Shown piece after piece: positions 7,411 through 15,682 of a DNA stretch of 36,077 nt. The DNA is taken from the NCBI GenBank assembly GCA_016928095.1, contig JAFGLL010000050.1, positions 1 through 36,077 on the forward strand. Reading direction: 5' to 3'. Numbering within the stretch: position 1 is the stretch's first letter; each line of letters starts with the position of its first letter. This stretch comes from Thermoplasmatota archaeon. Its GTDB lineage: Archaea; Thermoplasmatota; Penumbrarchaeia; Penumbrarchaeales; Penumbrarchaeaceae. The notes under the pieces are model-generated. The model was not told the origin of the DNA, made no database searches, and saw only the letters and a program-made list of their open reading frames with translations. The translations under genes and the position numbers were made by a program.

Positions 7411-8421
7411 ATGGACTCAAAATCCGCAGTCATGTCTATCATTGCGATCAAACCTCAATCTATAGGGGAATTATTGAATAGACTACCCTTTGCCCCACCT
7501 ACTATCTACGAAGCTGTAAGGGACCTGGAAGAGAAAAATCTGTTAAGGAGAAAAGATGCACTCGTCCTCGTGGCAGATGGATTCAAAGCAAAAAAGATCG
7601 CAGATATCCATATTCTTTCACTAAGTCACGGCATCGATCCTGAATTCATAATGAAGGAAAGTACGCTTTCCATCTGGAAGACGCTAGAGGTGGAACGCGG
7701 TTATAAAGATGTGAAGGATCTTACCGGGTATTCTCTTGTTACGATCAAGAACATCATTTCCCATCTCGTGGAAATTGGGCTTGTAAAATTCATGCGAAGG
7801 AAACCTGTTATCGCCGTAAGAAAGGATGATCATCCGATCAACAAGGAACTGCAGATGCTCTTTTCCCGGGAAGAAAATGGTGAGACATATCACTATCCGG
7901 GAACCATCCCATTCAAAGAGAATTATGTGACACCGGATGAACTCCAAAAGATCCTTTTTAATAGGATCGGGGAAGGCATCTCCGTCAAGAACACGGGTTT
8001 CCTTGTTAAAAATGGAAAAGGGACCGTTTCGATCATGGAAAGCACAGATGAGGTTCCATCACTTGAGGAATTGTTTCTGAAAAAACTCCTAACCACAGAA
8101 GGTATTGAAGATCTCTGCATCAAGATCCTGAAAACAGGTGAACTTGATCTTGAAGGACTCCTTGAATTATCTGTTGAGAAAAAAATGACGTCGGTTGTGG
8201 GATGTTATCTAGATATTCTGAAAGATATCGATCAGGAGATCGTTTCTGATGAGATCATTGAGAAATTTTTTGGATTATCACAAATGGAGAAAAAAAGGAC
8301 ATTCCTAAAGCAAGAGAGATCGTATGGGAAAAGCGGATGGGAGAGAAAGTATGAGAAGAAATGGAACATTGATCTTTACCTTGACCTTGATGCCATCAGA
8401 CACGGAGTGAGATCAGCATGA
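7411..8421 (+). CDS. winged-helix regulator / candidate antitoxin
   Basis: A 336-residue protein with two predicted winged-helix regions: residues about 5-55 (SIGELLNRL, APPTIYEAVRDLEEKNLLRR) and about 95-135 (DVKDLTGYSLVTIKNIISHLVEIGLVKF). The C-terminal half is acidic and helical. It overlaps the nucleotidyltransferase frame by ATGA, a two-gene order typical of AbiE-like (type IV) toxin-antitoxin pairs in which the HTH protein is antitoxin and autorepressor. Family membership beyond HTH is inferred from context. The DNA here is visibly richer in A/T than its neighbours, suggesting acquisition. It is probably leaderless, with its own TATA box. Confidence 0.7.
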   Translation: MDSKSAVMSIIAIKPQSIGELLNRLPFAPPTIYEAVRDLEEKNLLRRKDALVLVADGFKAKKIADIHILSLSHGIDPEFIMKESTLSIWKTLEVERGYKDVKDLTGYSLVTIKNIISHLVEIGLVKFMRRKPVIAVRKDDHPINKELQMLFSREENGETYHYPGTIPFKENYVTPDELQKILFNRIGEGISVKNTGFLVKNGKGTVSIMESTDEVPSLEELFLKKLLTTEGIEDLCIKILKTGELDLEGLLELSVEKKMTSVVGCYLDILKDIDQEIVSDEIIEKFFGLSQMEKKRTFLKQERSYGKSGWERKYEKKWNIDLYLDLDAIRHGVRSA

Positions 8422-9149
8422 ACCTTGAACAGTTCCCAACCGATATCAAGAACGATATCGAGGACCAGAGCTTATCCATTCTTGACAGGATCAAGGAAAG
8501 GGTAATCGTTATCGGCGGATGGGCAGTTAGGGCCCATCTTGGGGAAGGTCATCATAGATACACACTTGATTTTGATGGAGTGACAGATGACAAGAATTTG
8601 GAGGTTATTCGAGAAGAGATGGAAGGATATGGTTTCAAGGCTCATCATTCGAATTGGAATCCAGTTCCTGAAGAAGTATAAACCGAGTGTTTCCGTCCCG
8701 GAAGCACTAAGAGAAGAGGTTGAGAAGATACAGATCAGGATCGAGATATCCGAACCAATGATCACAGAATTCCAGACTCCCCATTTCTTCGAATTCAGCT
8801 GACGGACTTCGAGGAAAAAGGGATTCCTTATCATGATAAAAGGAGAGAAGTAATGGTGAAGGTGCCTCCGATCGAACATATAACAGCAGTGAAACTTGGT
8901 CTACTGGTTGATTACAAGAACAATCATGACGCAGCGATGCTGCTTCAGAGAAGCGACCTCAAACTGGTTATCAAAGCAATTCTTGAAAACGATGATTGGA
9001 GGGAAATGGTCCTGCGAAGAATGCCAAAATTGAAAGGGAGGATCTCTCAGAGCGGACAACTGGAGAATACCCTTGCCCTTGCTGCCGGACTCAATATCAA
9101 GGAACACATCAAGAGGCTCGGTATCATTGAAGAAGCGTTGAGGAAATGA
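8418..9149 (+). pseudogene. AbiEii-like nucleotidyltransferase, disrupted by two frameshifts
   Basis: Three consecutive frame segments read as one nucleotidyltransferase of about 244 residues. Segment 1 (8418-8681) has VIGGWAVRAHLGEG and TLDFDGV, the GG and DxD metal-binding motifs (Asp51, Asp53). Segment 2, in another frame to 8802, continues FLKKYKPSVSVPEALREEV and QIRIEISEPM. Segment 3, back in the first frame to 9149, reads LTDFEEKGIPYHDKRREV and VPPIEHITAVKLGLL. The shifts fall near 8660-8675 and 8790-8800 and compensate each other. The fold resembles toxins of AbiEii/AbiGii type. Either the toxin has decayed or the assembly has two indels. As read, only the first 87 residues, containing the catalytic site, would be made. 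Confidence 0.7.
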
Positions 9150-9269: not shown

Positions 9270-9289
9270 GCCACCAGAGGGATTCGAAC
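9270..9289 (-). repeat. tRNA-Thr 3'-end duplication
   Basis: The 20 bases GCCACCAGAGGGATTCGAAC (plus strand) are identical to 9428-9447, the T-arm and acceptor end of tRNA-Thr. The two copies are 158 bp apart in direct orientation. Such a partial tRNA copy is the usual mark of site-specific integration, but here the intervening segment is only about 138 bp and carries no gene. Confidence 0.85.
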
Positions 9290-9427
9290 TTCCGCAAAAT
9301 CAGCGATTTTGCTCACCTTGAGACTTCTCAATGAAATTCCTCGAAACGAAGTCTCAAGACCCTTCGGGGTTCGGATCCATCTATACCTTATATCCATTCA
9401 TCTCTTCGAGCTGAATGGAAAAATGGA
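9290..9427 (-). repeat. tRNA-Thr-linked unit with three stem-loops (158-bp periodicity)
   Basis: Between the two tRNA 3'-end copies are three inverted repeats: CCATTCA/TGAATGG (9394-9400, 9412-9418), CTTGAGACTTC/GAAGTCTCAAG (9317-9327, 9348-9358) and GCAAAATC/GATTTTGC (9294-9301, 9305-9312). A small ACCC-TTCG-GGGT hairpin lies at 9359-9370. No coding frame is visible. The same size and order of elements recurs downstream of tRNA-Arg. It could be a minimal integrated element, a structured RNA, or an accreted attachment site. Confidence 0.6.
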
Positions 9428-9500
9428 GCCACCAGAGGGATTCGAACCCCCGACCTGCTGATTACAAGTCAGCCGCTCAACCGAGCTAAGCTATGGTGGC
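9424..9500 (-). tRNA. tRNA-Thr (anticodon TGT)
   Basis: The minus strand reads GCCACCATAGCTTAGCTCGG at the 5' end. The acceptor GCCACCA pairs with TGGTGGC, the anticodon stem is GCTGA/TCAGC around the loop CTTGTAA (anticodon TGT, threonine), and the T-arm contains GGTTCGAATCC. Discriminator T is followed by an encoded CCA (9424-9426). No intron is seen. A TATA element lies at 9535-9542. Confidence 0.93.
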
Positions 9501-15271: not shown

Positions 15272-15348
15272 GCCCCGGTAGGGTAGCCTGGATATCCTGG
15301 AAGCCTGCGGAGCTTCTGACCTGGGTTCGAATCCCAGCCGGGGCACCA
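15272..15348 (+). tRNA. tRNA-Arg (anticodon GCG)
   Basis: The acceptor GCCCCGG pairs with CCGGGGC, the anticodon stem GAAGC/GCTTC encloses the loop CTGCGGA (anticodon GCG, arginine), and the T-arm is CTGGG-TTCGAAT-CCCAG. Discriminator A is followed by encoded CCA. No intron is seen. It is followed by two partial copies of its own 3' end. Confidence 0.9.
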
Positions 15349-15503
15349 TATCCTATCCTTTATACAATATATCAAGCAGGATAGGATATCCGGCTTCGGG
15401 GTTCGAACCTTGGTCCTGGAAGTTTGGAGGTTCCACGGCTCCAAACTTGCAGGTCAGGGAGATCATGAAGTGATCTGCCGAGATCGAATCCCAGCCGGGG
15501 CAC
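15348..15503 (+). repeat. tRNA-Arg-linked unit 1 (157-bp periodicity, three stem-loops)
   Basis: Directly after the tRNA CCA come ATATCCTATCCT/AGGATAGGATAT (15348-15359, 15378-15389), AAGTTTGGAG/CTCCAAACTT (15420-15429, 15439-15448) and AGATCA/TGATCT (15460-15465, 15471-15476). The unit ends with TCGAATCCCAGCCGGGGCAC (15484-15503), identical to tRNA bases 15327-15346. The first stem-loop could also end tRNA transcription. No coding frame is visible. Confidence 0.65.
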
Positions 15504-15682
15504 TCAATTATACAACACTTTTTGGCGTGCCCCTCTATAATATAATGATATACGCAAAATAAGCTGAATAGATGCTTACTTCTTATTTAGCTGGACCTTT
15601 GTGTTTGAATTTGATGGAATCAATGGACAACACAAAGGTCCCAGCCGGGGCACTTGATTATAGGTTAATTACTGGCGTGCCC
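15489..15682 (+). repeat. tRNA-Arg-linked unit 2 (150-bp periodicity) with flanking 44-bp repeats
   Basis: A second unit runs from the 3'-end copy at 15489 to a third copy, TCCCAGCCGGGGCAC, at 15639-15653. Stems are GGGGCAC/GTGCCCC (15497-15503, 15527-15533), AAATAAG/CTTATTT (15557-15563, 15582-15588) and GGACCTTTGTGT/ACACAAAGGTCC (15593-15604, 15630-15641). After both copies 2 and 3 the motif GGGCAC, a 23-base loop and GTGCCC recurs with about 14 of 23 loop bases equal, so copies 2 and 3 are part of a longer 44-bp direct repeat. Confidence 0.65.

Follow-up and report, generated by a model that had tools for sequence, protein, structure and literature searches.

Two small non-coding units stand in tandem behind the tRNA-Arg(GCG) gene of a Thermoplasmatota archaeon, and both end in a copy of the 3' end of this tRNA. 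We see an even chance that these Arg units are members of a phylum-wide group of miniature, non-coding and non-autonomous integrative cassettes, which target tRNA 3' ends and are moved in trans. The window, i.e., the whole stretch of DNA that was analysed, comprises 36,077 nucleotides of contig JAFGLL010000050.1 (assembly GCA_016928095.1).

Tandem units behind tRNA-Arg and tRNA-Thr

The 13-nt 3' end of tRNA-Arg, TCCCAGCCGGGGC, occurs at 15332-15344 inside the tRNA and again at 15489-15501 and 15639-15651. The acceptor ends of these copies, at 15344, 15501 and 15651, are thus spaced by 157 and 150 bp and bound two non-coding units. An earlier sequence-only reading of this DNA had described three such copies at these spacings, with three hairpins in each interval. 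The positions confirm the copies, and the hairpins were recovered by DNA folding, with stems of 12, 10, and 6 bp in unit 1 and a 12-bp stem plus two weaker ones in unit 2. The array has the following parts:

15272-15348, plus strand: intact tRNA-Arg(GCG), its 3' end being repeat copy 1 (ARAGORN; Rfam RF00005, 57.4 bits)
15332-15346, plus strand: repeat copy 1, comprising the 3' strands of T-stem and acceptor, the discriminator and C (sequence; duplication extent mapped in 77 units)
15348-15389, plus strand: unit 1 hairpin 1, 12 bp with an AT-rich 18-nt loop (DNA fold)
15390-15409, plus strand: unit 1, tRNA-Arg 3' end in inverted orientation, CCGGCT-TC-GGGGTTCGAACC, bulged by 2 nt (fold; host-matching test of 81 units)
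15415-15453, plus strand: unit 1 hairpin 2, 4 + 10 bp (fold; compensatory changes at 10 of 12 pairs in homologous units)
15460-15476, plus strand: unit 1 hairpin 3, 6 bp, loop TGAAG (fold; compensatory changes at 5 of 7 pairs)
15484-15503, plus strand: repeat copy 2, end of unit 1, sharing 20 bp with the tRNA, TCGAATCCCAGCCGGGGCAC (sequence)
15497-15533, plus strand: unit 2 hairpin 1, built from repeat copy 2 itself, GGGGCAC ... GTGCCCC, 7 bp (fold)
15562-15592, plus strand: unit 2 middle stem, which carries the family motif ...ATTTAGCTGG (fold; motif also in loci L030, L155, L263, and L017)
15594-15640, plus strand: unit 2 hairpin 3, 12 bp, GACCTTTGTGTT ... AACACAAAGGTC (fold; counterparts with different stem sequences in L133, L135, L139, and L155)
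15639-15653, plus strand: repeat copy 3, TCCCAGCCGGGGCAC, end of unit 2 (sequence)

Beyond repeat copy 3 a trailing half-hairpin follows, with GTGCCC at 15676-15681. In the loci with counterparts of hairpin 3 and in others, TTGACGA or its complement TCGTCAA recurs in hairpin loops, often twice per unit, and this motif could serve loop-loop pairing or be a protein site.

A further unit lies behind tRNA-Thr(TGT), 5.8 kb from tRNA-Arg:

9424-9500, minus strand: tRNA-Thr(TGT) (ARAGORN; RF00005, 67.3 bits)
9270-9427, minus strand: one 158-bp unit on the plan of the tRNA-Arg units, with the 3' end of tRNA-Thr repeated at its terminus

The Thr and Arg units had been called unrelated in sequence. This is correct for their stems, which differ, but the order of elements (hairpin, inverted tRNA end, hairpin, hairpin, tRNA end) is common to both. 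For each of them, related sequences were recognized at further tRNA genes; the Thr unit, for example, has a close cousin behind tRNA-Leu(CAG) of its own genome. The distal end of the Thr unit adjoins a nucleotidyltransferase-like frame at 8418-9149 of the window, which is apparently split by frameshifts and is possibly a decaying mobile-element gene.

Units behind many tRNAs of Thermoplasmatota

When the Arg units were used as DNA queries against the own genome (2.80 Mb, 124 contigs), matches appeared downstream of tRNA-Pro, Gly, Ser, and Gln, and also at contig ends that bear arrays. Among the 31 tRNA genes of this genome with at least 300 bp of flank, 14 are followed by a unit. Ten of its 39 tRNAs lie no more than 340 bp from a contig end, several of them within units or arrays, and therefore the arrays probably fragment the assembly. 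The close genomes that were sampled contain 102 tRNAs with flanks of 450 bp or more. Their own 13-nt 3' end recurs downstream in 38 of these 102, compared to upstream copies at 1 of 102 and to ends of other tRNAs in 10 of 853 tests as controls. Altogether, 100 unit bodies that differ from each other were collected, ranging from 74 to 240 bp with a median of 159.5 bp. The RecJ-like protein of this archaeon shares 65% identity with one from a Thermoplasmatales MAG, in accordance with its place in the Thermoplasmatota; named relatives sought through this neighbor gene amounted to a single contig. Units are present in every sampled genome of the own family and order, in two further families of the class and in the more distant Thermoplasmatota families f5, f9, and f10, with about eight families represented, whereas none was found at the 34 tRNAs of G013, G015, G025, G026, G033, and G034.

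Two short units (74-95 bp) from distant families, L070 behind tRNA-Gly(GCC) of G027 and L128 behind tRNA-Ala(CGC) of G004, have one internal loop in common, with CTCAGTCG ahead of the inner hairpin and CTCCTCC behind it, while stems and tRNA differ. At three loci (L028, L030, L121) partial units devoid of an intact tRNA-end copy lie distal to the last complete unit, which suggests that older units decay with distance from the tRNA.

An inverted copy matched to the host tRNA

About 15 bp are duplicated, namely the 3' strands of T-stem and acceptor stem together with the discriminator. The duplication has sharp borders: identity between the tRNA and the distal copy is 0.92-0.99 at positions -13 to -1 from the acceptor end, the discriminator still reaches 0.88, and background level follows shortly beyond it. 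In the 77 mapped units the duplication thus extends from -13 to +1 and in some up to -17, the left edge at -13 being partly imposed by the 13-nt search word. The units start T-rich (43% T vs. 29%).

Each unit contains, about 34 bp from its start, the tRNA end in inverted orientation. This host-matched inverted copy, which the sequence-only reading overlooked, is the most informative feature of the units. It matches the unit's own host tRNA with a mean local score of 6.99, compared to 5.00 (sd 0.15) after permutation of the hosts, and none of 10,000 permutations of 81 units reached 6.99; in direct orientation the same test of 81 units revealed no host matching. Where the acceptor stem of the host has a G-U wobble, the unit carries the exact complement of the 3' strand in seven cases, several of which come from related units, and the base of the tRNA 5' strand in none. 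In Arg unit 1, the inverted copy and the tRNA end pair around hairpin 1, so that one long imperfect hairpin is formed in the fold of 15321-15503 (z = -8.5).

Hairpins maintained by compensatory change

Compared to 200 dinucleotide shuffles each (DNA parameters), Arg unit 1 (z = -7.0) and unit 2 (z = -4.9) fold more stably than all of them, and the tRNA-Thr unit reaches z = -5.4. Across 78 units, 182 stems of at least 8 bp were counted vs. 14 in shuffled sequence. Stem-loops are therefore commoner than in shuffled sequence. In one family of 11 homologous units, we found 46 two-sided compensatory cells vs. 12.2 +/- 3.1 in shuffles, and a covariation score of 0.478 vs. 0.181 +/- 0.022. Hence, the hairpins of the units are maintained by compensatory change. 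The earlier proposal of a family of small, tRNA 3' end-linked units under selection for structure is supported by the many tRNAs and species concerned, by unit polymorphism among sister species, and by stems which outnumber those of shuffled sequence and are preserved through compensatory change.

Such strong compensatory changes would also be expected if the units were RNA genes, i.e., small RNAs which are co-transcribed with the tRNA and excised because their ends resemble an acceptor (RNase Z or RNase P substrates). The units lie on the strand of the tRNA, and the stem of inverted and direct copy resembles an acceptor/T minihelix, both in agreement with this explanation. However, selection at the RNA level is expected to favor G.U, and isolated mismatches within stems of the units are G.T in 16 and A.C in 15 cases, whereas tRNAs of the same genomes have 50 and 16, respectively (Fisher p = 0.02; with a laxer mismatch setting 59 vs. 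58 in the units, p = 0.001). Since G.T is not commoner than A.C, unlike in tRNAs, DNA hairpins are favored over RNA, to a moderate degree. The GU content of covarying helices does not differ significantly from that of tRNA acceptors (p = 0.34), and only the mismatch test is therefore used as DNA/RNA evidence. Moreover, the inverted copy is the complement of the tRNA 3' end and not a version of the 5' strand, the T-rich unit starts should promote termination ahead of it, and the tRNA's own folding would face competition from an inverted T-arm in its trailer. The Rfam search of the window matched only the two tRNAs, and the units turn over fast among sister species. Altogether, RNA genes are an unlikely explanation.

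Units differ between sister species

The sequence-only reading had suggested polymorphism as a check of the units, and they do indeed differ between the sister species G000, the own genome, and G001. At tRNA-Gln(TTG), G001 aligns with G000 through the tRNA and about 170 bp of flank, minus exactly one 159-bp unit. The 158-bp unit of the window at tRNA-Thr(TGT) is likewise missing from G001, which has TCTCTTCTTTTA directly after the tRNA, 32 nt that are identical to the window sequence beyond the distal copy. At tRNA-Asn, G002 has an extra unit next to the tRNA compared to G005, whose first unit is the counterpart of the second one in G002. The extra units sit on the tRNA-proximal side, and judged from the alignments either gain or loss may have occurred, as an identical "empty" site would remain if a unit were lost precisely through recombination between its repeats.

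Related unit bodies also occur behind different tRNAs of one genome. In G004, unit 2 of tRNA-Val(TAC) and unit 1 of tRNA-Val(GAC) have two differences in about 94 body positions; each terminates in the end of its own tRNA, and the inverted copy of these near-identical units still fits Val-TAC only. Both repeat copies are of the target type, which is not predicted by simple one-site recombination between unlike cores. The pair shows that the body of a unit was transferred from one tRNA locus to another, which may have happened via insertion with target duplication or via body-only gene conversion.

Body-only gene conversion would fit a reading without a dedicated enzyme, in which the units would be old structured satellites with homologous recombination, gene conversion and slippage at the tRNA-end repeats as their only means of spread. 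Patterns that resemble unequal exchange occur in the tandem arrays, whose unit order is shuffled: L139 has the duplicated block pattern A-B-A'-B', and in L069 and L070 alternate units are identical. Moreover, the distribution comparisons described below identified no enzyme. However, repeats of 13-20 bp are very short for homologous recombination, and spread by recombination alone leaves the arrival of first units at many different tRNAs unexplained, as well as the consistent extent of the duplication and the host-matched inverted copy. We regard this alternative as rather unlikely.

Candidate enzymes

No tyrosine recombinase, Cas1, reverse transcriptase or Y1 transposase could be tied to the units by its distribution across close genomes. 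A tyrosine recombinase of some kind is present in nine of 11 genomes, but no single type tracks the units. The former view of the units as small satellites is supported with respect to family and structure, while a recombinase attachment site at the tRNA end and excised circles are putative.

The own genome encodes a XerA/IntI-like tyrosine recombinase (L171, contig C108, 1171-1983), whose gene lies about 1 kb away from the array of tRNA-Gly(TCC). Its best solved relative is IntI4 (1e-32, in one search), which made it a candidate for the mover, and it is 53% identical to a protein of G004. The distribution of this type does not support such a role, as it is absent from the unit-bearing G003 and G005 and present in the unit-free G015, G025, and G033. 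It was also rejected as an integron integrase, since the IntI-specific segment is lacking and the best candidates score 160 and 187 bits, below the NCBIfam cut-off of 265; L171 is below the XerA cut-off, too. Reverse transcriptase as the required enzyme was dismissed, as it is found in G000 and G003 only and is absent in G004 and G005. The domain in G000 lies in a 455-aa open frame (L178, contig C57), possibly a group II intron protein. A Y1 transposase (Y1_Tnp/RAYT) is not encoded in any of the f1 and f2 genomes (G000-G009) and was discarded as well. Matches of two unit motifs to viral contigs (5 and 2, respectively) have neither tRNA nor unit nearby and look like chance within coding sequence, and phage and plasmid collections gave no unit match with the queries used.

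A Cas1/casposase-like integrase that duplicates its target would generate a CRISPR-like array with the tRNA end as repeat, in line with the roughly 15-bp duplications found at the tRNA 3' ends and the tRNA-proximal position of additional units. However, Cas1 is absent in G000, which is 96% complete, and in eight of the 10 other close genomes, and was thus rejected as the required enzyme. Furthermore, the casposase duplication begins 8 bp past TCAAATC, about 10 bp more 3' than that of the units, and the units have no visible terminal inverted repeats. A Cas1-based origin is thus very unlikely.

Integrases do adjoin some tRNAs. Directly behind tRNA-Ser(AGA) of the own genome a 388-aa tyrosine recombinase is encoded (L164, contig C69, 1060-2226). 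This locus lacks a unit-like structure and probably represents an ordinary integrated element. An integrase also adjoins tRNA-Thr in L166. The units might accordingly be scars of such integrase-bearing elements that lost their interiors and left attachment-site halves behind. Since elements of the L164/L166 type contain neither an inverted tRNA-end copy nor the hairpin set, and scars would not preserve a common length, the three-hairpin plan and compensatory changes, this origin is very unlikely.

A possible mechanism

For the preferred reading as integrative cassettes, we infer movement by a dedicated enzyme, folding in vivo and use of a folded strand. A unit comprises a T-rich hairpin, the inverted tRNA-end copy and usually two more hairpins between host tRNA-end copies of about 15 bp. 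Cassettes would be gained, usually beside the tRNA, through a putative trans-acting enzyme that recognizes the cassette as folded DNA. In the folded strand, the inverted copy would pair with the direct copy and thereby rebuild a double-stranded tRNA end, which would explain why the inverted copy matches its host and is exactly complementary. The logic would be integron-like, with the tRNA end playing the role of attI, and recombination among the repeats would later alter the arrays. It is possible, rather than probable, that the units even represent a new class of mobile elements, i.e., gene-free cassettes of about 160 bp which an enzyme acting on a folded single strand integrates at tRNA 3' ends and whose reversed target copy is re-matched at each new tRNA.

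If this is true, many tRNA genes of Thermoplasmatota bear large and fast-changing arrays of tiny non-coding elements which standard annotation overlooks. The host-matched inverted copy would then be a direct and testable clue to folded-DNA integration outside integrons, and the arrays would be natural records of repeated insertion at defined sites.

Comparison with known systems

Casposons and CRISPR arrays resemble the units in that about 15 bp are duplicated at the 3' end of a tRNA and growth takes place beside a leader-like sequence; the casposase of A. boonei generates 14-15 bp duplications at tRNA-Pro (PMC6614799). The shifted duplication of the units, their lack of terminal inverted repeats and the missing Cas1 in most carriers set them apart. 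REP/BIME and PATE elements (Y1/RAYT) are small, palindromic and non-coding as well, but the units duplicate a tRNA end and the f1/f2 genomes have no Y1 transposase. Similar to MITEs and to tRNA-targeted elements with tyrosine integrases, the units are short and non-autonomous, with a duplicated target and a tRNA 3' end as site. However, they lack the terminal inverted repeats of known transposons, contain a host-matched inverted copy, and no autonomous partner was seen. RNAs from tRNA 3' trailers and partial tRNA genes (PMC9897764) also contain tRNA 3' fragments, whereas the units are repeated, structured and equipped with target-matched inverted copies. A search of the open-access literature, with subscription papers and preprints outside its scope, found no description of such tRNA-end arrays, and within this literature the class appears to be new.

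Integron cassettes with their attC sites, including archaeal ones (PMC9668308), are added in tandem beside a fixed site; a repeat and its inverted partner bound each cassette, and one strand forms a bulged hairpin. The units likewise stand in tandem with a repeat and its inverted partner, and a bulged hairpin between inverted and direct copy is present, as judged from fold, host matching and covariation; its use as a folded recombination site would be putative. The main text on archaeal integrons mentions neither tRNA nor Thermoplasmatota (PMC9668308). In contrast to integron cassettes, the units are gene-free, their target is a tRNA 3' end, one arm of the hairpin is matched to the host tRNA, and no IntI was found. 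By inspection, the attC boxes GTTRRRY ... RYYYAAC are absent from the units, whose repeats are T-stem/acceptor sequence. Although the units thus differ in the defining features that were tested (boxes, integrase, and genes), it is integron cassettes that they would, by analogy, most resemble in their way of working.
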